Shown: positions 6,855 to 64,000 of the stretch, piece after piece | Layout of the letters: each line of letters starts with the position of its first letter | Position numbering within the stretch: the stretch's first letter is position 1 | Assembly: GCF_942548115.1 (NCBI RefSeq) | Contig: NZ_OW824151.1 | Location: 3,038,001-3,102,000, forward strand | Direction of reading: 5' to 3' | DNA from: Aeromicrobium sp. Leaf245 | GTDB lineage: Bacteria; Actinomycetota; Actinomycetes; Propionibacteriales; Nocardioidaceae | DNA: 64,000 nt | The notes under the pieces: generated by a model | Database searches by the model: none | Seen by the model: only the letters and a program-made list of their open reading frames with translations | What the model was told of the DNA's origin: nothing | Made by a program: the position numbers and the translations under genes

Positions 6855-7655
6855 TCACATATCAGTGACCGTAGACCGCCGGGGGCCCATATTCCAGAGG
6901 ACGGCCGAGTTCGTCCCGAACGGCGGGTGTCCCCGCCCACGACCCCGGCCCTCGCGGACGTCCCTCGTGGTCGATCCGGGCGCCGGACGTGCTGTCACGA
7001 CGGCGGCACCGAGCACACCGACGCCGTCGGAGACGAGCACGCGGACGGCCTCGGCCAGCGTGGCCCCCGTGGTGACGACGTCGTCGACGACCACCACGTC
7101 CGCACCACCGGTGAGGCGACGACGCGACCGTCGCAGCGCGCCGTCGAGATTCCCACGACGCTCCCGTGCAGCCAGGCCCACCTGGTCCCTCGGCTCCCGC
7201 TCGAAGGTCAGGGCGGGCACCACCGTCGACCGCAGCCCCACCGCCTCCAGGCGCCGCGAGGCCTCCTGCACCGCGCTCGTCAGCAGGTCACCACCGCGCC
7301 GACGTCGGCCGCGTCTGGTGGTCGGCACCGGCACCAGGCAGACGGCGGGGCCCGGCTCCAGCGCGCACACGGACGCCGCGACGAGCGCACCGATCGTCGG
7401 GCCCAGCCGCGTGTGTCCGCCCCGCTTCCAGGCCAGCATCACGTCACGCAGCACACCCTCGTGCTCCCCGACCGCCACGACGGGGACCGGTCGGTCCGCG
7501 ACCAGGCGCGGTCGCGGTGCGATCCTGCGCCGGCACGGTCCGCACAGGTCCACGGCCGGGGACCCGCAGCCCGCGCAGGCAGCGCCGAGCAGCAGGTCGG
7601 CCGCGGCGAGCAGAGGGTCCACCCCACGAGCGTGGGCCGGCCAAGGACCTCGCAC
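6855..7655 (-). CDS. comF: ComF-family phosphoribosyltransferase-like protein
   Basis: About 266 residues from a GTG at 7655. An N-terminal double-Cys zinc-ribbon-like segment (CAGCGSPAVDLCGPC, about 27-41) precedes a type I phosphoribosyltransferase domain with the PRPP loop VVVVDDVVTTGATL. ComF proteins support DNA uptake in Bacillus, but their role in actinobacteria is not settled. The position between lpqB and hpf is strongly conserved. The last 35 residues are Gly/Arg/Pro-rich and probably flexible. No clear ribosome binding site precedes the GTG, so the start is uncertain by some residues. Confidence 0.85.
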   Translation of the reverse strand: MRGPWPAHARGVDPLLAAADLLLGAACAGCGSPAVDLCGPCRRRIAPRPRLVADRPVPVVAVGEHEGVLRDVMLAWKRGGHTRLGPTIGALVAASVCALEPGPAVCLVPVPTTRRGRRRRGGDLLTSAVQEASRRLEAVGLRSTVVPALTFEREPRDQVGLAARERRGNLDGALRRSRRRLTGGADVVVVDDVVTTGATLAEAVRVLVSDGVGVLGAAVVTARPAPGSTTRDVREGRGRGRGHPPFGTNSAVLWNMGPRRSTVTDM

Positions 7656-7707
7656 CAGGGGTGCCCCGCAGGGTGTGGACGAGGGGGACCACGACCCGTC
7701 GGCGGGA

Positions 7708-9492
7708 TCAGACCCCTGGGGACAGCGTGCTCACCGCTCCGACGCCGAGCCGCGTCCAGGTGGCTCCGGGCCCGAGGTACCAGAGCCGGTCGCGCCGGTC
7801 GACGGCCCAGCGCTGCTCCCCCGCGACCACGAGGGTCCGAGCACCGACGTCGGGCAGCACCGGCGCTCCGCCGGCCCCGCCACCCTCCAGCTCCGTGCCG
7901 TCGGCCATGCCCTCGAAGACCTGCCGCCCCAGGTCGGTGTCACCGAGGAACGCCAGGCGCGCTCCGTCGACCCAGGCCACCGAGGCCGGCCGGCCGACGT
8001 CCCATCGCAGCGCGACGGACGCACCGAGTCCCACCACGCGGTCGTCGGCGGACCGCTCCACCGCCCCGATGCGGACCAGGCCGCCCCCGCCGGTGCCGTC
8101 CTCCGCCCCCGGCCCGGAACCCCCGCCCGCTCCGTCCTCCGCCCCCGGCCCGGAACCCCCGCCCGCGGTCGTGATGGCGTACCGCGACCCGTCGGGCGAG
8201 AGGGCGAACGACGTGACGTCCAGCGACGCGAGCGCCGCCGACGGGATCGACCGCGTGGCGTCGGGCTCGACGACCCGCACCCGCGACCCGCCGCCCGGGC
8301 GGTCGACGACGACGAGCACGTCGTCGGGGAGCCACCGGGCCGAGACGAGGTCCGTCACCGCGACCTCCACCCGATCCTCGCCCGTGGTCCTGCGGACCAC
8401 GAGCACGTCGCCCGAGCGGGACAGCGTGGCCACCCGCGACGGCCCCACGTCGATGGCGGCGGTCTCGTCCGGCTCGACGGCCCACGCCTCGGGCACCGGG
8501 CGGATCGTGGCACCCACGATCTCGACGACGCCGGCGTCCTCCCCGTCGAGCACGGCGAAGGGCCCCGACTCCACGGCGCGGGGCACGTACCGCCGCCACG
8601 ACCCGACCGGCTGGACCCGCTGTCCCCGCGGTGTCAGCACGGTGGCGCCCGCCGAGACCCGCACACCGGTCACGTCGCGGACCTGGCTCAGCGTCCAGAC
8701 CAGCTGTGCCGCCAGACGCCCCTGGTCGGCGACCGACAGCTGCGCGGCATCAGGCCCCAGGTCGACCTCGGCGACGCCCTCGGCGTCCACCGGGACCGAG
8801 GGGCGCAGGTCGCCCAGGCCGGGCACGTAGGTCCGGAGCTGGGCGGTGGGGTCGGACGGACCCCGCGCCAGCGACGTCACGAGCGACGTCGCGAGCTGTT
8901 CACCCGCCGGCAGGTGCACCACCGAGGGCGCCAGACGCTCACCGGAGCGGTCGAAGAAGAACACCGGGAACGCCCGGTAGTAGTCGGTGTAGAACTTCTC
9001 GGTGACCAGCAGGCCCTCCGGTGGTGCCGAGATCCGCCACTCCCCGTCCACCTGCTGCAGGCCGAACGAGCGTCGTTCCCGGGTGGCGGCGGGCTCGACG
9101 CGACCGCGCGCGTCGAGGTCGAGCACCCCCCGTGCGGTCAGCTCCACCTGCATGCCGTCGTCGCGACGGTCCGCACGCACGGCGGACACCAGCGGGTCGC
9201 GGTAGACGTGCGTGGCGGCGGCCGGGTTCCAGCGCTCCGCCGCGCCCTGCGTGAGGTACTGCTCGGCCACACCGGTCGACGGCGGGAACGCGAGCATCGC
9301 GTCGAGGTAGCCGGAGACCACCTGCTGCGGCGTGGCGCCCGGGCTCGGCGGGGCCGGGGCGTAGCGCACCGTGCTCTGGCCGAGGTCGTCGTCCTCGCGG
9401 ACCTGCTGCACGGTCCCGCCGGTCGGGATGCCCGAGCAGCCGGCCACGACCACCAGGACGGTCGCCGCGGCGACCAGCCGCAGGCCCCTCAC
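7708..9492 (-). CDS. lpqB: Lipoprotein LpqB
   Basis: 594 residues from the GTG at 9492, which overlaps the mtrB stop (GTGA). This start gives a short signal peptide with lipobox VAGC (Cys at 19); a longer in-frame opening would bury it. The mature protein has the N-terminal LpqB/GerMN region (about 60-330) and a C-terminal beta-propeller-like half. In mycobacteria LpqB contacts the MtrB sensor domain and modulates MtrAB signalling and cell-wall homeostasis. Near residues 445-470 the sequence holds two copies of a Gly/Pro/Glu-rich 12-residue repeat encoded by a 36-bp duplication, probably a surface loop. Confidence 0.95.
   Translation of the reverse strand: MRGLRLVAAATVLVVVAGCSGIPTGGTVQQVREDDDLGQSTVRYAPAPPSPGATPQQVVSGYLDAMLAFPPSTGVAEQYLTQGAAERWNPAAATHVYRDPLVSAVRADRRDDGMQVELTARGVLDLDARGRVEPAATRERRSFGLQQVDGEWRISAPPEGLLVTEKFYTDYYRAFPVFFFDRSGERLAPSVVHLPAGEQLATSLVTSLARGPSDPTAQLRTYVPGLGDLRPSVPVDAEGVAEVDLGPDAAQLSVADQGRLAAQLVWTLSQVRDVTGVRVSAGATVLTPRGQRVQPVGSWRRYVPRAVESGPFAVLDGEDAGVVEIVGATIRPVPEAWAVEPDETAAIDVGPSRVATLSRSGDVLVVRRTTGEDRVEVAVTDLVSARWLPDDVLVVVDRPGGGSRVRVVEPDATRSIPSAALASLDVTSFALSPDGSRYAITTAGGGSGPGAEDGAGGGSGPGAEDGTGGGGLVRIGAVERSADDRVVGLGASVALRWDVGRPASVAWVDGARLAFLGDTDLGRQVFEGMADGTELEGGGAGGAPVLPDVGARTLVVAGEQRWAVDRRDRLWYLGPGATWTRLGVGAVSTLSPGV
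8096..8166. repeat. Two-copy 36-bp in-frame tandem duplication inside lpqB
   Basis: The segments starting at 8096 and 8132 are the same for about 35 bp. They encode two copies of a 12-residue unit (GGGSGPGAEDG followed by A or T). The unit length preserves frame, so copy number can change without breaking the gene. Confidence 0.85.
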
Positions 9493-46399: not shown

Positions 46400-48064
46400 T
46401 CACCGGTACGCGACCTCCGCAGGGCTGCCGTCACGCTGCGTGATGATGCCGCCGTCGAACCGCGCTCGGGACAGGCCCGGCTTGCGGTAGACCCGCGTCT
46501 CGGGAGCGCCGAGGCGTCCCTCGGACTCCCCCAGCTCGCGGTACAGGTCCTCGATGCCGCCGTGGATGCCGAGCGCGATCGTGCCCGAGCCGCGGACCAC
46601 CCGGTAGACGCTGCCGCGCTCGAAGCGCTGCACGCTCACGGCCGGATCCGCGGTGCGGACGTGCAGGGCCGTGGGGAACCCCATCACTCCGGCGTGGGCG
46701 CCGAGGTGGTTGTACTCGCCACGCACCAGGCCGCCGACCCAGAACACGCCGACGCCCTGCTTCCAGTACAGCTCCATGGCCTGGAAGAAGGTCTTGCGCT
46801 GGGTCGCGTTCCCGTACTCGCTGGCGTACGGGTAGCCCGTCAGGTCGCGGCCGAGCTTCGCGGCGTACCGCTTGATCTCGGAGTCGTAGTCGGCGATGTA
46901 CGACGCGACGCTGTTGCGCAGCGTCGGCAGGTAGGCGTAGCCGTTGCGTCCGGGGCACGCCGTCCCCAGGACGTCGCGGTGCCCGTGGATCACCTGGTAG
47001 GTCTTGCCGTCGGCCGACCAGGTGCCCTTGGCGCCCCGGTAGAACGTGCCCAGGCGCCAGCCGATGACCTTCACCAGGGCGGAGCGCGTGGCCGTGCCGA
47101 CGTTGGCGGTGTCGTAGTTGCCCATCATCGACACCCCCATGGAGTAGGTGTTGACCTTCGCGTTCCCTGCGTGGGCGCCGCGGACCGTGCGATCGAGTCC
47201 GCCCTTGCGGCCCTCGAAGATCTGCCCGTACTTGTCGACGAGCACGTTGTACCCGATGTCGCACCAGTCGCGGCTCTTCACGTGGTACGACTGGATGCCC
47301 CGCACGATCGAGCGCGACTGCGCCTTCGTGTAGGAGTTCGAGCCGGCCGTGTGGTGCAGCGTCACGCCGAACGTGGTCATGCCGACGCGGGGGCTGTCGC
47401 ACGAGCCACCCGCCGAGGCCCCCCAGGAGGAACGGCTGATGACGGCCGGCTTGGGCGTGAACGTGGGCGAGGCGTCGGCGGCCTGGGCCAGGCTGCTCAC
47501 AGGTGCACTCGCCGAGGTCGCGGAGCCTGCGCCGTCGGACCCGAGGTCGAGGGTCTCGAGCCTGAGCCCGCGAGGCACCGATCCCGAGCTGGAGGCGACC
47601 TGCAGCGCCACGGCATCGGACTCCCCCACGTACATGGGCTCGGTGCCGGGCCGCCCGGCCTCCACCGTCTCCTCGTCCTGCGGGATCTCCTGCCAGGCAC
47701 CCCACCCGTCGGCGGTGCGCGTGCGCACCTGCACCACCACGTCCCCCAGTCCGGGGGTCGGCGACCAGGTGGCGCCGACCATCGAGAACGACGGGACGGT
47801 CCGGGGAGCGATCTCCGAGACCACGGGTGCGCTCGGGACGGCGGTCCGCGCCGTCGTCCGGGCCAGACGGCGTTCGCCGCGGCTCCGCGACGCCTCCACC
47901 GCACGGTGCTTCGGGCGCTCGAACCGTTCCAGGGAGACGTCCTGTCCGGACGACGCCGTGCGCGCCGGCGCAGGACCGGTCGCCGGGGCTGCGGCAGCCG
48001 CAGGGGCCACCAGCCCGCCCCCGGCCAGGACGAGCGTGGTCAGAGCGACGGACAGGTGCCTCAT
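46400..48064 (-). CDS. Secreted PGRP-type amidase with LGFP-like C-terminal repeats
   Basis: 554 residues, ATG at 48064. Signal peptide (about 1-26, SVALTTLVLAGGGLVAPAAAAA). An N-terminal region with GVTWSP-type strands precedes a PGRP/amidase_2 domain (about 205-370): VISRSSWGAS, zinc-site TLHHTAGSN, the CDIGYNVLVDKYGQIFEGRKGG signature, HGHRDVLGTACPG with the remaining zinc ligands. The final about 150 residues are repeats of the LGFP kind (VGVFWVGGLVRGEYNHLGAHAGVMGFPT, then RLGAPET), which bind the wall. It should cut the N-acetylmuramoyl-L-alanine bond. Zinc-site His and Cys are intact. It is a paralogue of the next gene. Confidence 0.93.
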   Translation of the reverse strand: MRHLSVALTTLVLAGGGLVAPAAAAAPATGPAPARTASSGQDVSLERFERPKHRAVEASRSRGERRLARTTARTAVPSAPVVSEIAPRTVPSFSMVGATWSPTPGLGDVVVQVRTRTADGWGAWQEIPQDEETVEAGRPGTEPMYVGESDAVALQVASSSGSVPRGLRLETLDLGSDGAGSATSASAPVSSLAQAADASPTFTPKPAVISRSSWGASAGGSCDSPRVGMTTFGVTLHHTAGSNSYTKAQSRSIVRGIQSYHVKSRDWCDIGYNVLVDKYGQIFEGRKGGLDRTVRGAHAGNAKVNTYSMGVSMMGNYDTANVGTATRSALVKVIGWRLGTFYRGAKGTWSADGKTYQVIHGHRDVLGTACPGRNGYAYLPTLRNSVASYIADYDSEIKRYAAKLGRDLTGYPYASEYGNATQRKTFFQAMELYWKQGVGVFWVGGLVRGEYNHLGAHAGVMGFPTALHVRTADPAVSVQRFERGSVYRVVRGSGTIALGIHGGIEDLYRELGESEGRLGAPETRVYRKPGLSRARFDGGIITQRDGSPAEVAYR

Positions 48065-48104
48065 CAGGTCGATTCCCCCTCGGATCGAGCCGGTGGACCG
48101 AGGT

Positions 48105-50900
48105 TCAGCCCAACCGGAAGTAGTGCGAGCGTAGCCCGAGCGCGAACCGGAGCTGAGGCCCCGTGACCGTCGTCGACCCCTTCGTGCCCGTGAGCGTGAT
48201 CGACTCGACGCGGCCCGCCCAGTCGCCCATCAGGTCGCGCTTGGTGACCTTGAGGCTGCGCAGGGTCCCGACCTGCGGGTAGGCCTTCTCGATCGTGGCG
48301 GCCGGGACGGACGCGGTCCAGTCGTGGTTGGCGTTGCCCGACCAGTCGTCCCAGGCGTCGAGGCGTCCCTTCAGGTACGGCTGGCTGCCCGGCGCCGAGG
48401 CGCCGCCCGAGGACGACGAGTACTGCGTGAACGCCGGCGCGCCCTGGTAGGTGAGGATCGCGCCGAGGGTCGCCAGCACGGCCTTGTCGGTGGTCGCGGT
48501 CTGGCCGGCCACGCCCTTGTAGACCTGGCAGGAGGTCGTGTCGCACACGTCGTAGTACCGCGACGGGGTGAGCGAGCGGACGCCGTAGGTGCGCGCAGCG
48601 ACCGACTGCGCCTTGAGCGCCTCCGGCTCCCAGCTCGACGGCATCTCGGCCGCCACGACGCCGAGGGTGTAGTTGTCGATCGACGTCACGTTCACCGTCT
48701 TGCGCGTGGTGGCGCCCTTCGACGGCACGGCCGAGCGCACGCTCGTGCGGTACTCCCGCACGCTCCCACCCGGCATCACGAGTGCCACCTTCGTGGCCTC
48801 GAACTGCGCGTCGCCCGTCCAGAAGTTCCGGTCGTAGGCGGTCCAGGTGGATCCGGTCCGGTACTGCAGCACGGACTTCTTCGGGTCCGCGGTGAGCGGG
48901 ATGATCCGCCACTGCGAGACGGTCTTGCCGTTGCGGGTGGCGGGCAGGACGATCCGCTTGCCCGACACCATGTTGCGGTAGGCCAGGCCCGAGCGAGCCG
49001 TCACCGTCACCGTCGACGAGGTCGCCGCGCCGAGCAGCACGCGGATGCTCCCGGTGCGCTCGGACAGGGTCGTGCCGGGGTAGTAGGCGGCCAGGATCTC
49101 CTTGAACGTCTTGCCGGAGCGGGCCGCACCCTGCGCGCCGTACTGGCTCATGCCGATGCCGTGACCGAAGCCGTGGCCACGGAAGGTCACGGTGCGACTG
49201 CTCGGCACGGTGAGCCCGTCGGGACCGATGCCGCCCGCGTACCAGGTGCTGACGACGCCCGAGGCCTCGGACAGCTCCAGGTAGCCCTTGGTCAGCTTGA
49301 GGCGCTGGTAGCCCGTCCGTGCGCGATAGACGGTCGACCGCGGCACGCCGAGCTTGCCGGCGGACTCCTTCTGGGCCTGGTACTCCTTGTACAGCGGTCC
49401 GTAGAGCGCGTAGCCGGCGGTGCTCGACCCGCTGGTGACCAGGTACACCGCTCCCTTCTGGAAGCGCTGGACCTTCGTGCCCGTGACCGAGGTCGCCACC
49501 GGGTCACCGGTCGGGAAGCCGAGCGAGCCGTTGTGCTCACCGGTGCGGTAGAACTCGGTCTTCGCCGGGCCCGAGACGGCGTAGGCACCCGCGGCCTTGG
49601 TCCAGAGCAGGTCCATGTTGGCGTAGATCGCGCGACGCTGGGTGGAGTTGCCCCACTCGGCCCGCACGACCTTGCCGAGCTTGGTGCTGCCGATCTTGGC
49701 CGCGAGCTTCTGGATCTCGGTGCCGGGGGCCGGCGTGCTCGGGGTCGGGGTGCTCGTCGACGTGCCGGCGAGGCGCTTGGCCACCTCGCTGCGCAGGCCG
49801 CCCGACTGCGTCAGCCACGCGTACCCGTAGCGCCCGGGGCACGCCGTGCTCTTGACGTCGCGGTGACCCATGATCCGGTTCACCGTCTTGCCCCCGAGGG
49901 AGTACGTGCCGGTGGCCTTCAGGCCGGCGAGCGAGTGGCGCCACGCGATGAGGTCCGCGACCGCGGTCTTCATGGCTGCGGGGACCTGCGCGACGTCGTA
50001 GTTGCCCATCATCGAGACGCCGACCGTGCGCTCGTTGGCGGCGTTGACGCCGGCGTGGGCACCGCGCACCATCTTCGTGATGCCGCCCTTGCGACCCTCG
50101 AAGATCTGGCCGTACTTGTCGACGAGGAAGTTGTAGCCGATGTCGCACCAGCCCTGGCTTCCCGTGTGGTACGCCTGCGTGGATCGCACGATGCCGGCGG
50201 ACTGGGCCTTGGTGTAGCTGTTCGAGCCGGCGGTGTGGTGCAGCGTCGTGCCGAGCATGGAGGCCCCGTACACCGGCGCGCTGCAGGACGATCCGCTCTT
50301 GGCGCCCCACGAGGCGCGGCTGATGATCTTGGGCTGGCCGACGGCGGCCGCCGTCGGCACGGTCGCGCTGCCGTTCTCGCCGTCGGTGACCGTGGACACC
50401 CGCACACCGCTCGGCGAGCGCCCGGACGGGGTGCTGACGCGGACGTCGACGCCGTCGGACTCCCCGACCCAGAGCGGGTCGGTGCCGGGACGCACGTCGG
50501 TGGACGCGGGATCGGTCGGTGAGGTCTCCAGGGTGGTCCAGTCGCTCCAGCCGTCGGCCAGCGAGCGCCAGCGCACCTCGACCGTCGGGTCCTCGTCGGT
50601 CGACCCGGCGTCCCAGGTCACGCCCAGGAGCGAGAAGGTCTCGGTCGACCGGGTCAGCTCCGCGGCCGGCTGGGGCTCCTCGGCCTCGGGGGTGCTCGGC
50701 GCCGTCCTCTGGTCGGGGCGAGCCTCGTCCTCGGCCGGGTCGACCGGGGGCACCACGGTCTCGGTCACCTCGGCCGGCTTCGCCTCGGCGGTGACGACGG
50801 CCGGCGGCGCGGCATCGGACGTGGAGACGAGGGAGGCCACCGCGACGGCGGAGACGACGGCGAACGGGACAGTTCGCCGGACCAAGGTCCAGGGGCGCAT
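48105..50900 (-). CDS. PGRP amidase - LGFP repeats - SpoIID/LytB fusion protein
   Basis: About 931 residues from the ATG at 50900 (signal peptide 1-30). Order: an N-terminal region and GVTWDAG strands, a PGRP amidase domain (about 185-370; LHHTAGSN, CDIGYNFLVDKYGQIFEGRKGG and MGHRDVKSTACPG), LGFP-like repeats (about 400-560) and a C-terminal SpoIID/LytB domain (about 590-920) with FRGHGFGHGIGMSQYGAQG, VVAAEMPSSWEPEALKAQSVAARTYG and FTQYSSSSGG. SpoIID is a lytic transglycosylase acting on denuded glycan strands, so one polypeptide carries both the peptide-stripping amidase and the glycan-cutting activity. Three GTCACA repeats lie upstream. Confidence 0.92.
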   Translation of the reverse strand: MRPWTLVRRTVPFAVVSAVAVASLVSTSDAAPPAVVTAEAKPAEVTETVVPPVDPAEDEARPDQRTAPSTPEAEEPQPAAELTRSTETFSLLGVTWDAGSTDEDPTVEVRWRSLADGWSDWTTLETSPTDPASTDVRPGTDPLWVGESDGVDVRVSTPSGRSPSGVRVSTVTDGENGSATVPTAAAVGQPKIISRASWGAKSGSSCSAPVYGASMLGTTLHHTAGSNSYTKAQSAGIVRSTQAYHTGSQGWCDIGYNFLVDKYGQIFEGRKGGITKMVRGAHAGVNAANERTVGVSMMGNYDVAQVPAAMKTAVADLIAWRHSLAGLKATGTYSLGGKTVNRIMGHRDVKSTACPGRYGYAWLTQSGGLRSEVAKRLAGTSTSTPTPSTPAPGTEIQKLAAKIGSTKLGKVVRAEWGNSTQRRAIYANMDLLWTKAAGAYAVSGPAKTEFYRTGEHNGSLGFPTGDPVATSVTGTKVQRFQKGAVYLVTSGSSTAGYALYGPLYKEYQAQKESAGKLGVPRSTVYRARTGYQRLKLTKGYLELSEASGVVSTWYAGGIGPDGLTVPSSRTVTFRGHGFGHGIGMSQYGAQGAARSGKTFKEILAAYYPGTTLSERTGSIRVLLGAATSSTVTVTARSGLAYRNMVSGKRIVLPATRNGKTVSQWRIIPLTADPKKSVLQYRTGSTWTAYDRNFWTGDAQFEATKVALVMPGGSVREYRTSVRSAVPSKGATTRKTVNVTSIDNYTLGVVAAEMPSSWEPEALKAQSVAARTYGVRSLTPSRYYDVCDTTSCQVYKGVAGQTATTDKAVLATLGAILTYQGAPAFTQYSSSSGGASAPGSQPYLKGRLDAWDDWSGNANHDWTASVPAATIEKAYPQVGTLRSLKVTKRDLMGDWAGRVESITLTGTKGSTTVTGPQLRFALGLRSHYFRLG

Positions 50901-50915
50901 GGGGAAGACCGATCC

Positions 50916-50939
50916 TGTGACAGATGTGACGGATGTGAC
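50916..50939 (-). promoter_or_regulatory. Triple GTCACA direct repeat, probable MtrA site
   Basis: On the minus strand GTCACA occurs three times with an exact 9-bp period (plus-strand TGTGAC at 50916, 50925 and 50934), 16-39 bp upstream of the amidase-SpoIID ATG. MtrA of mycobacteria binds directly repeated GTCACA-type motifs in cell-wall hydrolase promoters. The place is close to the start codon, so the transcript start would need mapping; repression or an extended site is possible. Confidence 0.6.
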
Positions 50940-51021
50940 GAGCGAGCCAGGCCAACGGAACCACACATCGGCGGCGACTTCCACCGGTGTGAGTGAACTA
51001 CACGCCTGTCATTTCCGCAGG

Positions 51022-57412: not shown

Positions 57413-59212
57413 ATGCTGATGCCGACCTTCCCGGGACGTTCGGGACGGGTCACGTCGGGCGACGACGCCCCACCCCACGAGGCACCGCTCCACGAGGCAC
57501 AGCCCCAGGTCGCGCCCAGCGAGGTCTTCGCTGCGCAGTTCCTCTTCCTCACGGCCCTCGCCTTCCCGGTCGTCGCCGCGATCGCCACGTCGCTGCCCGC
57601 GCACCCCGCGGTCTTCACCGTCGGTGCCGTCCTGGCCGGGTTCACGGCGATCCTGTCGGCCCTGCTCGGCTCGCTCGGCATCGAGCGTCGCGGCGCCACC
57701 GTGGTCGCGGCGACCCTGATCTGCCTGCTCGACGTCGTGGTGTGCAGCCTGCTGTTCTTCGCCGCACCGGGGTCGGGCTTCTTCGTCCTCGCCGTCCTCC
57801 CGGTGGCCTGGGTCGCCGTCCAGCTGCCGACGCCTCCGCGTGTCATCGTGCTCTCGGCGAGCCTCGTCGGACTGCTCACGGCCCAGGCCGTCAAGGACCT
57901 GAACGGCGACCAGCCCTGGCGGGCCGGCGTGGCGACGGTGCTCAACCTCGGCCTGCTCCTGTGCATGTCGTCGTGGGCGGGAAGCCGCTGGACCCGGCGG
58001 AACGTCGCGCAGCGTCGCCTCCTGGAGGCCCAGACCCGGCTCGTCGGGTCGGCGCTGGACTCGGCGCGCACCCAGGAGCGGGTGCTCGCGGAGGTGCTCG
58101 ACGTGGTCGACTTCGTAGTGGTGACGTTCAACGCCGACGGCACCACGTCGGCCAACCGTGCCGCCGAGGACCTGGCCCGTCGCATCGGCGCGGTCGACGC
58201 CGCGTCGGTCGTGCGCGACGGGCCGTTCTACCTCGCGGACGGCACCACCCCCCTGGACTCCCGGTCCCACCCGCTCACGCTCTCGCGGGCGGGCGAGGAG
58301 GTCGAGCGCGCCCTGGTGCGCCTCGGCCATCCCGGGCCTTCGCAGGTACCGCTCCACGTGAGCGTGCGTCGGGTGGCCAGCCACCGGTCGGAGCGGTACG
58401 TCGTGGTCGCCCGTGACGTGAGCCGCGAGCTGGCCGACGAGCAGGCGCGCGACGACGCCGTGGCGGCCGTGTCCCACGAGATCAAGACGCCTCTCACGTC
58501 GGCCCTCGGCTACCTGGAGCTCGCCCTCGCCGAGCCCGACCTCGGCGACGAGGCGCGCGAGCTGATGGAGGTCGCGCTCGAGAACACCGAGCGCATGCTG
58601 GCGCTCTCGCGAGACTTCCTGACCGCCCGCAGCCGCACCCCGGGCGTCCCCCTCAGGATCGTGCGCGAGTCCTGCACCCCCAGCGCGGTGGTCCGGCAGG
58701 CGGTCGAGGGCGTCCGTCCCGTGGCCACCGAACGTCTGGTCACGGTCCGCGTCGACGCCGCCACCGAGATCGACATCGCTGCCGATCCGCTGCGTCTGCG
58801 CCAGGTCGTGGACAACCTGCTCACCAACGCCGTGAAGTACAACCGGTACGACGGCACCATCGAGGTGTCGGTCCGCGAGGTGACGCGGCCTCGACCGGTC
58901 GAGGCCGACGGCGGCGCCGGGTCGCCCCACGGAGCCCCCGCGGTCCCGGGGGTGGAGATCGTCGTCGCCGACACCGGCCACGGCATGACCGAGGACGAGC
59001 TGCAGGCGCTCTTCACCCGCTTCTACCGAACGAGGGGCGCGCGTGACTCCGGCGTGCAGGGCACAGGCCTCGGGCTGAGCATCGCGCAACAGATCGTCGA
59101 GGCGCACGGCGGCGTCATCGACATCCGCAGCCGGCCCGAGCAGGGCACCACGGTCTCGGTCTGGCTGCCCGCCTCCGCCGACGTCTCGTCGGCGGAGCAG
59201 GACGTGGCCTGA
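57413..59212 (+). CDS. Multi-pass membrane sensor histidine kinase
   Basis: 599 residues. Five to six hydrophobic helices (about 42-60, 66-88, 97-116, 122-138, 144-160 and 172-188) form a sensor region with little extracellular loop, so it may sense membrane state or a hydrophobic signal. A PAS-like segment (about 225-335) follows, then the DHp H-box AAVSHEIKTPLTSALGYLEL (His about 355) and a HATPase with N-box QVVDNLLTNAVKYN, ADTGHGM and GTGLGLS. It overlaps the GGDEF-like gene by one base (TGATG). The OmpR-type regulator at 62689 in the same block is the obvious candidate partner. Confidence 0.92.
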   Translation: MLMPTFPGRSGRVTSGDDAPPHEAPLHEAQPQVAPSEVFAAQFLFLTALAFPVVAAIATSLPAHPAVFTVGAVLAGFTAILSALLGSLGIERRGATVVAATLICLLDVVVCSLLFFAAPGSGFFVLAVLPVAWVAVQLPTPPRVIVLSASLVGLLTAQAVKDLNGDQPWRAGVATVLNLGLLLCMSSWAGSRWTRRNVAQRRLLEAQTRLVGSALDSARTQERVLAEVLDVVDFVVVTFNADGTTSANRAAEDLARRIGAVDAASVVRDGPFYLADGTTPLDSRSHPLTLSRAGEEVERALVRLGHPGPSQVPLHVSVRRVASHRSERYVVVARDVSRELADEQARDDAVAAVSHEIKTPLTSALGYLELALAEPDLGDEARELMEVALENTERMLALSRDFLTARSRTPGVPLRIVRESCTPSAVVRQAVEGVRPVATERLVTVRVDAATEIDIAADPLRLRQVVDNLLTNAVKYNRYDGTIEVSVREVTRPRPVEADGGAGSPHGAPAVPGVEIVVADTGHGMTEDELQALFTRFYRTRGARDSGVQGTGLGLSIAQQIVEAHGGVIDIRSRPEQGTTVSVWLPASADVSSAEQDVA

Positions 59213-60291
59213 TGACCTCGTCCGAGCTGTTCCTCGCCGGGACCCTCACGGTCTTCCTCGCGGTCGCGGTGCCGTTCGCGCTGACGACCGCCCTGCGGCA
59301 CAACGATCCGGCCAACCGGCTGTGGTGCGGAAGCCTCATGGCGGCCCTGGGTGCGGGTCTCGCCCCGCTCATCGACCAGGTATTCGTGCGGACGGTCGAA
59401 GTGGAGGCCGCGGGGGCGGCGTGTGCCGTGATGACCTTGGGCCTGATGTGGTCGGGCGTGCGTTGGTTCCGGGGCGCGACTCCCCTGCCGGCAGCACCCC
59501 TGCTGGTCGCCGCCGTCGTGCTGGTCGCCTGGTTCGCCCTCTCCGCCGCCGGGTCGGCCGTCATCCCGTCGGGCTACCTCGCGGCCTCGGGCTTCGCGGT
59601 CGCCACCATCGTGGAGCTGCACCGCGGACCCATGCGCCTGAATGTCAACGTCAGCCTCCTGCAGGTCGTCCTCGGCCTCTTCGCCGCCGCCGCGACGATC
59701 AACTCCCTCGTCCACCGAGGCGACGACGGCTCCACCTTGCTCCCGGCGACGTTCCTGGTGGTCGCGACCACGGTCGGCCTGCAGCTGCTGGTGTCGATGC
59801 GCGCCGAGCGGGACGGCGCGTGGTGGTCCGAGGACCACGGCACGGGACGTGCGTTCGGCGTGCACTCCCGCGGCCAGTTCCTGGAGGCCGCGTCCGACCG
59901 GCTCGGTCGGCTGGAGCTGCGCGGCGGGCATGCCGCCCTCCTGCTGGCCGAGGTGACGGACCTCGCGGAGCTGAACGAGGCCTTCGGTCGGCGTGGCGGC
60001 GACCTGGCCCTCTCCACGCTGGCCGACACCCTGCGCCGGCACGTGCCCGCCTGGTCGGTGCTGGGATACCTGGGCGTCGGCCGGTTCGCCGTCCTCGCAC
60101 CGGCGGACTCACCCGAGCGTGCGGCCGAGATGGCCGCGGCCGTCGAGCACGCCCTCTACACGAGGTCCACGGAGCCGGACCAGCCGCAGGACGTCCCGGT
60201 CCCGGTGCTGCTGGGCACGGCGGACACCTACACGTCACGCGCCGACCTGACCGCGCTGATGACGGCGGCGGAGGCTGCTCGACACGCTTGA
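59212..60291 (+). CDS. Six-helix membrane protein with degenerate GGDEF domain
   Basis: 359 residues. Six hydrophobic helices (about 1-200) precede a GGDEF-like domain (about 225-355). The N-terminal part of that fold (LLLAEVTDLAELNEAFGRRGGDLALSTLADTLRRHV) is well kept, but the active-site hairpin reads YLGVGRFAVLAP where active diguanylate cyclases have RxGGDEFxxLLP. The acidic catalytic residues and the first glycine pair are lost, so c-di-GMP synthesis is not expected; it may bind nucleotide or act as a scaffold. It is translationally coupled to the histidine kinase. Confidence 0.85.
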   Translation: MTSSELFLAGTLTVFLAVAVPFALTTALRHNDPANRLWCGSLMAALGAGLAPLIDQVFVRTVEVEAAGAACAVMTLGLMWSGVRWFRGATPLPAAPLLVAAVVLVAWFALSAAGSAVIPSGYLAASGFAVATIVELHRGPMRLNVNVSLLQVVLGLFAAAATINSLVHRGDDGSTLLPATFLVVATTVGLQLLVSMRAERDGAWWSEDHGTGRAFGVHSRGQFLEAASDRLGRLELRGGHAALLLAEVTDLAELNEAFGRRGGDLALSTLADTLRRHVPAWSVLGYLGVGRFAVLAPADSPERAAEMAAAVEHALYTRSTEPDQPQDVPVPVLLGTADTYTSRADLTALMTAAEAARHA

Positions 60292-60314
60292 GGCAATCTT
60301 GAGCAGACCTTGAT
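60287..60314 (+). promoter_or_regulatory. Three CTTGA repeats with an exact 11-bp period
   Basis: CTTGAG at 60287-60292 and 60298-60303, then CTTGAT at 60309-60314. An 11-bp direct-repeat period is the classical arrangement of PhoB/OmpR-type regulators, whose dimers bind tandem half-sites on one face of the helix. It starts in the last codons of the GGDEF-like gene and lies 73 bp upstream of the glycosyltransferase start. The RR encoded at 62689 is a winged-helix regulator of that class. Confidence 0.6.
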
Positions 60315-60386
60315 CACGCACCGAGGCGAAACCTGAGCGTGAGGCACCAGGCTGGTCGGACCGACCGATCCCTGCAGGAGCCCTCA

Positions 60387-61847
60387 GTGTCGTACGACCC
60401 CAGCGGACCCATGGACCGCCACCCCCTCGCCTTCGACGCCTCACCCGAGGCGTTGCACCGCGCGCTCGGCGCTGCCGTCGAGGAGGTGGCCGGGAGCATC
60501 AAGCCCCGCGCCACCGTGGCGTGCGTCGTCCCCTCGTACAACGAGGCCGAGACGATCGCCTCCGTCCTGGATGCCCTGCTCGTGCAGACCCGTCTGCCCG
60601 ACGTGATCCACGTCGTCGTGAACAACACGACCGACGAGACCGTGGAGATCGCCGGCCACTACGCCGGGCAGCACGTGCTGGACCGTCCGGAGGGCACCCA
60701 GCTGGTCGAGATCTTCGTGCACGACATCGGCGAGAACCCCGACAAGAAGGTCGGCGCGCTCAACTACGGCTTCTTCCTGGCGGAGGGCTGCGACTACATC
60801 ATCGGCGTCGACGGTGACACCACGCCCGAGCCGACCGCGATCAAGGACCTCGTCGACGAGATCATGAGCGACGACCGCATCGGCGGCATCTCCGCGATCT
60901 ACAGCATCGACGACAGCGCCCTGCCGACCGCCATGGCCAAGTTCCTCACCGCCGGGCAGCGCGCCCAGTTCGCCGCCTTCAACATGCAGAACCTGTTGCG
61001 CGGCCGGAACATGGCCGTCCTCGGCGGGCAGTTCTCCATCTTCTCCACGCAGGCGCTGCGCGACGTCATGACGCTCACCCACCAGCGCGCGCCCTGGGTC
61101 AAGGACAGCGAGGTCGAGGACTCCCTGCTGTCGCTGCAGATCAAGAGCGCCGGCTACCTGACGAAGATCAGCGCCACCGCCCGCGCCCACGTGGGTGGCA
61201 TGAACACGCTGCGCGCCCTCGACGCCCAGCAGGTGAAGTGGAACTTCGGCGCGATCGAGCTGATGTGGCCGGGCCAGCGCGGTGACACGAAGGGACAGCC
61301 CTTCCACCCCAACCTGCGGCTGCGCTGGTTCGAGCACCTCTCGATGGTGCTCAACATCATCACGCGCGCCATGTTCTTCTCCCTGCTGCTCGCCAGCCTG
61401 TCGATCGACGCCTTCGTGTTCAGCCCGTGGTGGCTGATCCCACCGGTCGTCGCGATCCTGCTCAACTACCGGGTCGCCCGCTCCATGCACTACGGCCACC
61501 GGCGGGACATCCTCTTCGCCGTGCTGCTGCTGCCCGCCGAGATCTACATGTGGATCCGGATCGGGCACTTCGTGCGCGCGTGGACGAAGTTCGCGAGCCG
61601 CAAGCAGACCGACAACTGGGCGGCGCAGGCGAAGGCCGAGCGCGGCTCGGGCAACAGCTACCTGTACCCCTTCGCCATCGCGCTGCTCGTGTTCGCGGCC
61701 GCCGCCGCCGCGTGGATGCAGCTGCCCATCGGGTTGAGGTCCGACGTGCTCGCCGTCGGCTGGCCGATCCTCGGCGTCATCACCGTGTCCCAGACCTTCT
61801 GGATGGGCATCAAGATCCTGCGCAACTACCGTGGCTACACGGTGTGA
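60387..61847 (+). CDS. Cellulose-synthase-like processive GT2 glycosyltransferase
   Basis: 486 residues from the GTG at 60387, with AGGAG 6 nt upstream; the longer frame has no site. The cytoplasmic GT-A domain contains VPSYNEAE (about 48-55), the DGD metal motif (142-144), the VEDS general-base region (243-246) and QQVKW (281-285), a variant of the processive-synthase QxxRW. C-terminal hydrophobic helices (about 320-410 and 430-480) would form the translocation channel. No N-terminal helix or PilZ domain is present. This resembles CslA/PgaC-type enzymes making beta-linked polysaccharide; the sugar is not known. Downstream are a lipoprotein and, beyond the regulator, a GH6 cellulase. Confidence 0.88.
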   Translation: MSYDPSGPMDRHPLAFDASPEALHRALGAAVEEVAGSIKPRATVACVVPSYNEAETIASVLDALLVQTRLPDVIHVVVNNTTDETVEIAGHYAGQHVLDRPEGTQLVEIFVHDIGENPDKKVGALNYGFFLAEGCDYIIGVDGDTTPEPTAIKDLVDEIMSDDRIGGISAIYSIDDSALPTAMAKFLTAGQRAQFAAFNMQNLLRGRNMAVLGGQFSIFSTQALRDVMTLTHQRAPWVKDSEVEDSLLSLQIKSAGYLTKISATARAHVGGMNTLRALDAQQVKWNFGAIELMWPGQRGDTKGQPFHPNLRLRWFEHLSMVLNIITRAMFFSLLLASLSIDAFVFSPWWLIPPVVAILLNYRVARSMHYGHRRDILFAVLLLPAEIYMWIRIGHFVRAWTKFASRKQTDNWAAQAKAERGSGNSYLYPFAIALLVFAAAAAAWMQLPIGLRSDVLAVGWPILGVITVSQTFWMGIKILRNYRGYTV

Positions 61848-61898
61848 GCGCCCGACCGACCACCACCTCGCACCCCTGCTTCCCGAAGGAAACCTCTC

Positions 61899-62627
61899 GT
61901 GACCAGCGCTCAGCCCCGCCCGTCCCGTCGCGCCCGCCGGCCCCTCGCCGCCGTCGTGACCGCCGTCGCCCTCGCCCTCGTGCTCTCCTCGTGCGGCGTC
62001 CTGAAGGAGGACGCGCCACAGGCCGACGAGCCCGCGCCGACGGCCTCGGCCACCGCGGCCTTCGACTCTCAGTTCACCCGTGACGGCACGTTCCAGTCGC
62101 ACGTCAAGGTCGGCTCGATGGACTTCGTCTACACGATCTGGCCGACCAAGTCGACGCCGCGCACCAACGAGTGGTACCCCGGCGGCGACAAGTACTTCTC
62201 CTTCACGCTCCAGTCCTACGACCTGTCCCGCAAGCTCCGCGACAAGTTCAGCAAGAAGCGCAAGGTCTACCTCGACCGCATCGAGGTGACGTCGGCGACC
62301 ACCACGCCCTCCGGTGCCGTCGAGAACCCCTACGAGCTCGACGAGGAGGCGAAGAAGATCACCTTCGACCCGCAGCCGGTCTCGACGAAGTACGGCATGC
62401 TCATCACCTCGCCCAAGGGCGCGTTCGAGCTGCGCAACCAGAAGATCGGCCCGCTGGCCGCCGACACCCAGGGCGTCACGCTCACCTTCAGCGCGACGGT
62501 CTGGATCCAGAAGTCACGCGGCAGCGACGAGTACGAGCCCGAGCTGGTGACCCAGGAGGTCCCCATCGCGATCTTCGCCTCGAAGAAGCCGACCGAGGCC
62601 CAGAAGATCCCGATCAACGCCAACTGA
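61899..62627 (+). CDS. Secreted lipoprotein of the polysaccharide block
   Basis: 242 residues, GTG after GAAGGA. A signal peptide with lipobox LSSC (Cys about 32) is followed by a Glu/Pro/Ala linker and a beta-rich domain (about 55-240) with FVYTIWPTKSTPRTNEWYPGGDKYFSFTL, KKRKVYLDRIEV and GVTLTFSATVWIQKSRGS. I do not recognise the family. It is anchored outside the membrane, 51 bp after the glycosyltransferase gene and in the same direction, so a part in export, modification or display of the polymer is the simplest inference. Confidence 0.8.
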   Translation: MTSAQPRPSRRARRPLAAVVTAVALALVLSSCGVLKEDAPQADEPAPTASATAAFDSQFTRDGTFQSHVKVGSMDFVYTIWPTKSTPRTNEWYPGGDKYFSFTLQSYDLSRKLRDKFSKKRKVYLDRIEVTSATTTPSGAVENPYELDEEAKKITFDPQPVSTKYGMLITSPKGAFELRNQKIGPLAADTQGVTLTFSATVWIQKSRGSDEYEPELVTQEVPIAIFASKKPTEAQKIPINAN

Positions 62628-62648
62628 CGGCGCCACGCCAGGCGTTGC

Positions 62649-62678
62649 GGGCGCGGGTTCCTCCGGGGGCTCGCGCCC
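62649..62678. terminator. Hairpin between lipoprotein and response-regulator genes
   Basis: GGGCGCG (62649-62655) and CGCGCCC (62672-62678) make a 7-bp stem with a 16-nt loop between the two convergent stop codons. It lacks a U-tract. Confidence 0.55.
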
Positions 62679-62688
62679 TACGTCCGGC

Positions 62689-63744
62689 TCAGCCGTCCTC
62701 GGCCATGCGGTAGCCGACGCCCCGCACGGTCTCGATCCAGCGCGGCGTGGTGCTGGAGTCGCCGAGCTTGCGACGGATGTTGGCCATGTGCACCTCGACG
62801 GCGCGCTTGTCGGCCTCGTTCACGAAGTAGGTCGTGACGTAGTTCTGGCCGCGCAGCGTGAGGACGAGGTCGGCCTTGCTCCGCACACGGCGTCCGGTCG
62901 TCAGCAGCGAGGCGACGAGGTCGAACTCGGTCCGGGTGAGGTCGGCGTTGCGTCCGTCGACCACGACCGTCCGCGTGTCCACGTTGACGGCGAGTCCGTT
63001 GGAGCGGAGCCAGGCGTCCGCACCGGTGGCGGGGGCTGCAGCGGCACCCGCGCTCACGGAGGGGGCGTGGGCGACGCCCACGCGACCCGCGGAGGACCAG
63101 CCACCGGCGGAGGGCGGCGCTGCCGGAGCCGAGTGCACCGGGTGCGCGGACGAGTGAGGAGGGTGGGTCTGCGGCGCTGCGTGCTGGGCTGCTGCCTGCT
63201 GGGCGACGGCATGATGAGCAGCGGGCGACGGCGCGACCTCGCGCTGGGGCAGGTGCTGCTGCTCCGCGTCGGACCGAGTGGGCTCGGCCGCGGGCTGGGC
63301 CCACTGCTGGGGCTGCGCCGGACTGGTCCGGTCGGTCGCGGCGGCTGCAGCAGTGGTGGTCACGTGCTGACGCGGGCGACGCATCACGGACTCGATCCGG
63401 GCGCGGAGCTCGCGGGGCCGGAACGGCTTCACGAGGTAGTCGTCGGCGCCGGAGTCGAGTCCCTGCACGACGTCGATCTCGTCGTCCAGACCGGTGAGCA
63501 TGATGATGTAGGTGGAGCTGAACTCGCGGATCAGCTTGGCGGCCGCGAAGCCGTCCATGCCGGGCATGTTGACGTCGAGGGTGGTGAGCTCGGGATCGTG
63601 GGCGCGTACCGCCTCGACGCCCTCGGCGCCGTCCTTGGTCAGGATGACCTCGAAACCGCTCCGGACGAGGATCGTGCGCAGGAGGTGCCGGACGTCGGCG
63701 TCATCCTCGATGACGACCGCAAGGCGTGCAGAACTCTCTCCCAT
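62689..63744 (-). CDS. OmpR/PhoB-type response regulator with very long linker
   Basis: 351 residues, ATG at 63744. The receiver (about 1-125) has VVIEDDADV, the phospho-Asp in TLDVNMPGMDG and the Lys in DYLVKPFRP. The winged helix (about 250-351) has VDGRNADLTRTEFDLVASL and AVEVHMANIRRKLGDS. Between them lies an approximately 120-residue linker rich in Ala, His, Gln, Pro and Ser (runs such as HHAVAQQAAAQHAA), whereas PhoB-like linkers are usually under 30. It faces the kinase/polysaccharide genes and probably works with the kinase at 57413. The 11-bp-period repeat at 60287 suits its class. Confidence 0.92.
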   Translation of the reverse strand: MGESSARLAVVIEDDADVRHLLRTILVRSGFEVILTKDGAEGVEAVRAHDPELTTLDVNMPGMDGFAAAKLIREFSSTYIIMLTGLDDEIDVVQGLDSGADDYLVKPFRPRELRARIESVMRRPRQHVTTTAAAAATDRTSPAQPQQWAQPAAEPTRSDAEQQHLPQREVAPSPAAHHAVAQQAAAQHAAPQTHPPHSSAHPVHSAPAAPPSAGGWSSAGRVGVAHAPSVSAGAAAAPATGADAWLRSNGLAVNVDTRTVVVDGRNADLTRTEFDLVASLLTTGRRVRSKADLVLTLRGQNYVTTYFVNEADKRAVEVHMANIRRKLGDSSTTPRWIETVRGVGYRMAEDG

Positions 63745-63810
63745 GGGTCGAGCGTAGCAACGACGGCGTCCATCGCCCCTGAAACCGCAGGAATGCGCTG
63801 CGGGTCACGA

Positions 63811-64000
63811 TCACCAGCCAGCAGCGCGAGCGAGCTCGAGGGCCCGCTCGGTCCACCACGTGCCGGCCGCCGGACCACCTCCGCAGGAGCCGTCGCTCTC
63901 ACCCGGCGGCTTGATCCAGAGATGGGCGTCCAGGCGCCCGTCGCCGACCGAGGGCGCGCGGCCGAGGGCCCGGCCCGGAGGGTTGCACCACTGTCCGTCG
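63811..64000 (-). CDS. Glycosyl hydrolase family 6 (cellulase), 3' end only
   Basis: The last 62 codons before the stop at 63811 are visible; the gene continues past the right edge. They read DGQWCNPPGRALGRAP, then DAHLWIKPPGESDGSC, then GPAAGTWWTERALELARAA. WCNPxGRALG and LWIKPPGESDG with the following CGGGPAAGTWW are the signature of the C-terminal part of GH6 endoglucanases/cellobiohydrolases (the paired cysteines and the catalytic-site loop lysine and glutamate). It probably cleaves a beta-1,4-glucan. Position near a CslA-like synthase recalls the Streptomyces cslA-cslZ arrangement. Length and secretion signal cannot be judged. Confidence 0.8.
   Translation of the reverse strand, partial: DGQWCNPPGRALGRAPSVGDGRLDAHLWIKPPGESDGSCGGGPAAGTWWTERALELARAAGW

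Follow-up and report, generated by a model that had tools for sequence, protein, structure and literature searches.

A recurrent actinobacterial cluster of two-component, degenerate GGDEF, GT2 synthase, lipoprotein and GH6 genes, and its probable role in making a surface beta-glycan

At the right-hand end of a 64,000-nucleotide stretch of the Aeromicrobium sp. Leaf245 genome (hereafter the window; positions 3,038,001 to 3,102,000 of NZ_OW824151.1, the single contig of a 3.46 Mb genome) lies a block of six genes with the look of a regulated exopolysaccharide system. It opens with a membrane histidine kinase of 599 amino acids (57413..59212, + strand; HATPase_c PF02518, E 1e-29; HisKA PF00512, E 7.4e-14), whose stop codon is overlapped (..CCTGATGACC..) by the ATG of a gene for a 359-residue membrane protein with a degenerate GGDEF domain (59212..60291, + strand; PF00990, E 5.5e-10). 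A candidate operator of tandem 11-bp direct repeats (60287..60321, + strand) overlaps the GGDEF stop codon and lies upstream of the gene for a glycosyltransferase family 2 (GT2) glycan synthase of 486 amino acids (60387..61847, + strand; PF00535, E 7e-17), which starts 95 bp past that stop codon; its likeliest start is the GTG at 60387 rather than position 60339 of the mechanical open reading frame, because an AGGAG precedes it and close orthologues begin there. The lipoprotein gene follows after 51 bp (61899..62627, + strand) and encodes 242 amino acids with the lipobox LSSC and, in the model, a beta-sandwich. On the opposite strand lie an OmpR/PhoB-type response regulator of 351 amino acids (62689..63744, − strand), in which a linker of about 134 residues joins a REC domain to a winged helix-turn-helix (wHTH) domain, and a GH6 glycoside hydrolase gene, of which the 3′ end is inside the window (63811..64000, − strand) and the rest extends to 64803 on the window scale (L004:9811-10803); the whole gene, read from the genome, matches PF01341 at E 2.5e-55. 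The first-pass annotation, made from the letters of this DNA, had described the same six genes with this overlap, these two spacings and the reversed regulator and GH6 genes, and all of it holds, five genes having profile matches and the lipoprotein a lipobox.

The same partners recur far beyond the window. A family search of 149 genomes turned up 33 copies of clear GT2 orthologues, each at least 64% identical, in 32 of them including the window genome; below these the score drops from 645 bits to 80 bits for the next match. Up to 20 kb was fetched around the 32 other copies, some contigs being shorter, and partners were scored by profiles. Among these 33 family loci the lipoprotein is present in all 33, the regulator in all 31 that have 2.2 kb of downstream sequence, GH6 in 29 of the 30 that have 4.2 kb on that side, and the GGDEF gene in 14 of the 32 with 4 kb upstream. 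A scan of named genomes gave 332 GT2 relatives, and the 80 best formed a second set, counted over loci with enough flank and grouped from record titles; several are identical in sequence to family loci, so that the two sets are not independent, and the nearest records among these 80 are Aeromicrobium sp. CnD17-E and a Propionibacteriales metagenome-assembled genome (MAG), both with a GT2 93% identical to that of the window. The named loci carry the lipoprotein in 77/78, the regulator in 66/66 and GH6 in 62/65 (it was not found in L108, L118 and L126). Kinase and GGDEF genes are both present in 6/6 Aeromicrobium-type loci and in 27/28 and 26/28, respectively, of a ‘Micrococcales’ group, which is mostly Microbacteriaceae and also holds a Sanguibacter, an Actinomycetales MAG and one record titled Corynebacterium-like; neither was found in L136. 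In the Nocardioides-type loci both are absent (0/39 each), with GT2, lipoprotein, regulator and GH6 kept. The proposal that the six genes travel together is thus borne out as a recurring set, not as a rigid unit, and the lack of shared occurrence that was named beforehand as its refutation did not show up.

In a class sample of 393 genomes that were not picked for likeness (GT2 threshold E 1e-20), 21 have the GT2, all at about 1e-216 or better. The nine loci outside the family were fetched. In the six loci of one family, f8, homologues of the regulator, GH6 and lipoprotein all lie within the searched stretch; one of them (L172) has a GGDEF protein above threshold and another (L174) a still weaker one beside the kinase (PF00990, 18.0 bits against a cut-off of 23.8). 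Neither regulator nor GH6 was found in the searched stretch at L178, L179 and L180. Separately, the second GT2 copy of one family genome (L066 in G099) is a diverged GT2-lipoprotein-regulator set with no GH6 match, near a gene that by eye resembles a chain-length protein.

Both the gene order and the chromosomal home vary. In Aeromicrobium the block sits between rplY and prs-glmU; in 15 of 16 cluster-less genomes inspected, out of at least 23 of the same genus without a GT2 orthologue, prs and rplY are less than 600 bp apart with no cluster-protein match between them, and in the remaining one (L203) rplY falls outside the stretch. Nocardioides-type homes, named by eye, differ: a carboxylase-like gene lies just upstream at L051 and L045, a Maf-like gene downstream at L039 and L051, and at L043 the cluster stands between GlmM-like and GlmS-like genes. 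In Micrococcales the lipoprotein gene is inverted and divergent from GT2. Found next to orthologous GT2 genes in two orders, the arrangement is more than chance, and partners that stay together though their order and location change argue for a shared function. Beyond the window end lies a gene for a secreted protein that carries CarboxypepD_reg repeats and has a tail rich in Thr, Pro, Ala and Ser (64934-66319 on the window scale, L004:10934-12319, + strand); its homologues are found downstream of GH6 in Aeromicrobium and ahead of GT2 in some Nocardioides, and it may be a less regular seventh member of the cluster. This protein and the repeats ahead of GT2 are additions to what the first-pass annotation had recorded.

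In the kinase, the His of the H-box and the residues of the N-box and G-box are conserved in 15/15 aligned family orthologues. An extra kinase-like gene, about 29% identical, is found just ahead of the cluster kinase in L038, L040 and L073. The GGDEF protein, called degenerate from the start, is indeed so: the window copy reads GVGRF where GG[DE]EF is expected, and the motif is found in 0/15 family rows and 0/34 full-length relatives in the named loci, the commonest replacement being GxGRF and the least altered row (L146) reading GGGEL. An active diguanylate cyclase is rejected on the absence of this motif. The inhibitory-site (I-site) motif RxxD is also absent at the expected position in all 34 full-length relatives, four of which carry RFAD about ten residues further upstream. 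The pseudo-GGDEF protein would belong to the kinase and not to the synthase, because it disappears along with the kinase from loci that retain the synthase; the loss as a pair, with the rest of the set kept, also suggests that the two act together and upstream. In the GT2 tree, a quick, midpoint-rooted reconstruction with support under 80 on 30 of 92 inner branches, pair-bearing loci stand on both sides of pair-less ones, which fits a loss in Nocardioides. The same tree places the window's small clade with Nocardioides and not with other Aeromicrobium (support 87), so that intergeneric transfer or weak resolution is possible. Elsewhere in 17 GT2-bearing Nocardioidaceae genomes outside the genus (two of them less than 90% complete), the profile found no full-length copy of the GGDEF protein and, in two of the 17, short GGDEF-domain matches; the kinase-GGDEF pair is retained in one other genome from outside the genus (G017, L055). 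The cluster offers a clean case for studying what role, if any, remains to the GGDEF fold minus catalysis and I-site, its fate here following the kinase and not the synthase.

The first reading also held that c-di-GMP (cyclic di-GMP) exerts no enzymatically active control here. The lack of a PilZ domain in the synthase is confirmed, and no PilZ match was obtained genome-wide (the control search matched in 5/14 genomes), on which PilZ-mediated c-di-GMP control is rejected. The broader freedom from c-di-GMP is a prediction from missing motifs; four other GGDEF proteins of the window genome retain GGDEF or GGEEF.

The regulator keeps its phospho-acceptor Asp in 29/30 aligned sequences (the other being a gap) and its Lys in 30/30. 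An alignment of 73 rows from both orders shows conservation at many wHTH positions, and the linker, measured in 63 of 96 proteins, is long, at about 78 to 206 residues with a median of 128. A promoter alignment revealed tandem 11-bp repeats near TGAGCCRATCT ahead of GT2; OmpR/PhoB-type regulators use sites of this kind, direct repeats in tandem with an 11-bp period. With an intact phosphorylation pocket, and with no other DNA-binding protein recognised in the set, the cluster regulator is the natural candidate reader of these repeats. We have built a matrix from 22 repeat units of eight Aeromicrobium loci, keeping nine loci out of the test, and scored as success a locus-wide best triple site, on either strand, between 450 bp before GT2 and 60 bp into it (or, where the repeat-protein gene precedes GT2, measured from that gene). 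The best site fell in the expected promoter in 63 of 82 loci overall, including 29/29 Micrococcales loci, 5/6 of the f8 sample (in the miss, L173, the best site is just before the lipoprotein gene) and 4/4 held-out Aeromicrobium loci, two of them very close to training loci; among relatives that lack the regulator it did so in 1/3. Spacings of 9, 10, 12 and 13 bp gave totals of 2, 6, 7 and 5 of 82, with 0 to 2 of 29 in Micrococcales, and 60 column-permuted matrices succeeded in a mean of 6.7/82. The exact pattern CTTGAG-N5-CTTGA has only two matches in the 3.46 Mb window genome, overlapping each other and both at this place. Allowing up to one mismatch raises the count to 11, fewer than the 15 of a reversed control, so that this number carries no meaning; one of the single-mismatch matches falls in the GH6 promoter. 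A second operator at GH6 as a rule was considered and is unsupported, such a site being among the four best sites of the locus in 1/8 Aeromicrobium loci.

Processive GT2 synthases are marked by DxD, ED and QxxRW-like motifs, and in this family K replaces the usual R in QQVKW. The motifs VDGDTT (DGD), ED and QQVKWN are invariant in 32/32 orthologues, with S after ED in 31/32, and by DGD, ED and QQVKW the enzyme is predicted to be processive. In its structural model (pLDDT 76), a GT-A domain spans roughly residues 60-309 and is followed by five long C-terminal helices; the lone helix before GT-A (36-53) is short and poorly predicted. Foldseek ranks hyaluronan synthases at the top (7sp9, E 8.5e-15), then chitin synthases and then BcsA (5ej1, E 1.8e-10), in alignments with TM-scores near 0.5 and large root-mean-square deviations, and a mannosyltransferase and TarP appear at lower ranks. 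No curated NCBIfam cut-off is reached: 14 families match at E 0.1 or better, none of them a cellulose synthase, and the best likeness is to PgaC/IcaA, at 41.6 bits against a cut-off of 422.3. The label ‘CslA-like’ given earlier is accordingly apt for the fold and the GH6 partner, and goes too far in that no curated synthase cut-off is reached and no GlxA-type gene is present in the cluster; the suggested profile comparison likewise returned the GH6 family and left PgaC below its cut-off.

Each catalytic acid position of GH6 is conserved in either 29 or all of 30 proteins, the lone shortfall being a truncated gene, and many GH6 proteins start with a membrane anchor or lipobox (by eye). The window genome holds a second GH6 outside the cluster (G000:C1:2392335-2393078, L197), with no operator-pattern match nearby. 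At L179, a GH8 gene (E 7.6e-32) directly follows GT2 and lipoprotein, with no GH6 found in the stretch; this is one locus, a single case and no pattern. GH8 hydrolases are of the BcsZ type. The gene bcsZ is a cellulose-operon gene (PMC7112194), and GH6 is the CslZ type (PMC9040799).

The lipoprotein gave weak matches only, under every Pfam and NCBIfam cut-off, and no sequence match in the PDB. A profile of the Nocardioidaceae lipoprotein matches 22/29 Micrococcales loci (E 7.5e-9 to 5e-4), and a profile from Micrococcales-type lipoproteins adds six more; a profile-profile comparison of the two types gave a probability of 98.4, for sequences that had been picked by the first profile. Confinement of the lipoprotein to Nocardioidaceae was considered and is rejected, given this divergent, inverted homologue in Micrococcales. 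The single phylum-scan match outside Nocardioidaceae is in G404 (E 2.7e-4). The f8 loci L173 and L176 match both profiles at separate places, which suggests an old duplication.

Text searches of open PMC papers listed no description of this cluster, which is no proof of absence, as most subscription papers fall outside that scope. It belongs among the synthase-dependent exopolysaccharide systems, as a new version. Streptomyces CslA-GlxA-CslZ makes cellulose (PMC9040799, PMC11022532); like it, the present cluster pairs an actinobacterial GT2 with an oppositely placed GH6 gene, and it is set apart by the kinase, pseudo-GGDEF, regulator and lipoprotein in the cluster. No GlxA-type oxidase is among the cluster genes scanned, and a genome-wide search gave no match, its control matching nowhere either. 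With Bcs (BcsA-BcsB-BcsZ) it shares a GT2 of the same fold group, an extracytoplasmic protein and, in L179, a GH8 endoglucanase; it differs in having no curated BcsA match at E 0.1, no PilZ match in the genome and two-component genes in the cluster. The clostridial cellulose synthase with its cognate hydrolase CcsZ (PMC7710045) is alike in being a Gram-positive synthase with its own hydrolase. PelD and PssE (PMC7112168, PMC4125290) are degenerate GGDEF receptors in polysaccharide operons that bind through an RxxD I-site; a degenerate GGDEF protein in a polysaccharide locus is common to both, whereas ours has no such site, is coupled to a kinase gene and is lost with it. The poly-N-acetylglucosamine (PNAG) synthases PgaC/IcaA are the closest curated GT2 model, unlike which the present GT2 scores far below the cut-off and has no deacetylase among the cluster genes scanned.

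Taken together, with kinase and GGDEF paired, a regulator that would read the repeats, GT2 and lipoprotein following the repeats, and GH6 alongside, we think it fairly probable, on sequence evidence, that the block is one functional unit making and controlling a surface beta-glycan, the likeliest candidate being a cellulose-like beta-1,4-glucan. The gene set, the kinase, regulator and GH6 residues and the repeats are conserved, and the GGDEF motif is lost. Phosphotransfer would start from the kinase, with the pseudo-GGDEF protein as its membrane partner or sensor, and set the phosphorylation of the regulator, which may bind the 11-bp repeats before GT2 and so turn on synthase and lipoprotein. 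GT2 would polymerise a UDP-sugar and extrude the chain; the lipoprotein, as an extracytoplasmic beta-sandwich, might aid the chain outside the membrane, BcsB-like in role only, as no relationship was found; and the membrane-anchored or lipoprotein GH6 would trim or release it. More tentatively, and in our view doubtful as a whole, the cluster may represent an undescribed Gram-positive beta-glucan synthase lineage with a lipoprotein family and a two-component switch of its own; in it, a diguanylate cyclase fold would have turned into a lasting kinase partner that needs no messenger and has stayed inactive across two orders. A further actinobacterial glycan system with a candidate operator opens direct experimental access.

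Several observations weigh against the beta-glycan unit under two-component control, some touching the polymer and others the operator. GH6 enzymes are reported on xylan and chitin also (PMC9040799), and a second GT2 and a UDP-glucose dehydrogenase near the L179 copy (L179:2858-4294 and 7303-8712) may mean a uronic-acid polymer at that locus. The GT2 model lacks N-terminal membrane helices, so that processivity is argued from motifs and fold, and L118 keeps kinase and regulator with no GGDEF, lipoprotein or GH6 found. The repeat matrix succeeds in 24/40 Nocardioides-type loci and fails in 16/40, the best column-permuted matrix reached 28/82, L178 still gives a best site of 13.2 with no regulator nearby, and the second site ahead of GH6 is weak (9.2) and was listed for the window genome alone. 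The same architecture could serve an amino-sugar or uronic-acid glycan (PNAG-, chitin- or hyaluronan-like), the substrate of GH6 being either this polymer or peptidoglycan, as has been proposed for CslZ. The top solved folds, the PgaC/IcaA likeness, the dehydrogenase near L179 and the position beside prs-glmU in Aeromicrobium and between GlmM-like and GlmS-like genes in L043 all point that way; however, the PgaC score and the lack of a deacetylase among the scanned cluster genes speak against it, the nearness of glmU may be incidental, because relatives that lack the cluster ordinarily have the order glmU-prs-rplY, and GH6, with GH8 in one relative, are hydrolases of known beta-1,4-glucan systems, so that we rate this alternative as rather unlikely. 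A non-processive GT2 that decorates a wall polymer or a lipid, with GH6 as a bystander, would suit the absent N-terminal helices and the lower-ranked mannosyltransferase and TarP matches, but is highly improbable given the invariant QQVKW and ED, the higher ranks of hyaluronan, chitin and cellulose synthases and the frequency of GH6 in the named loci.

As to control, the four intact-motif GGDEF proteins of the genome mean that a messenger may exist, and with PelD and PssE as precedents the pseudo-GGDEF could still be a c-di-GMP or GTP receptor that gates kinase or synthase. This is unlikely, since the RxxD I-site that those two receptors use is missing at its position in all 34 relatives, the catalytic motif is lost too, and synthase clusters persist without the protein. 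The repeats might also be read by another regulator, the cluster regulator controlling something else, as the Nocardioides-type loci that keep the regulator without the kinase would allow, together with L178 and the 16 failures noted above. Against this, exact sites occur at one place in the genome, the wHTH positions are conserved across both orders, 2/3 relatives without a regulator are also without a site, and the repeats suit an OmpR/PhoB-type protein, all of which makes another reader distinctly unlikely. Elsewhere in the window, two adjoining large proteins on the − strand (46400-50984) resemble, by eye, secreted proteins of peptidoglycan amidase or SpoIID type.

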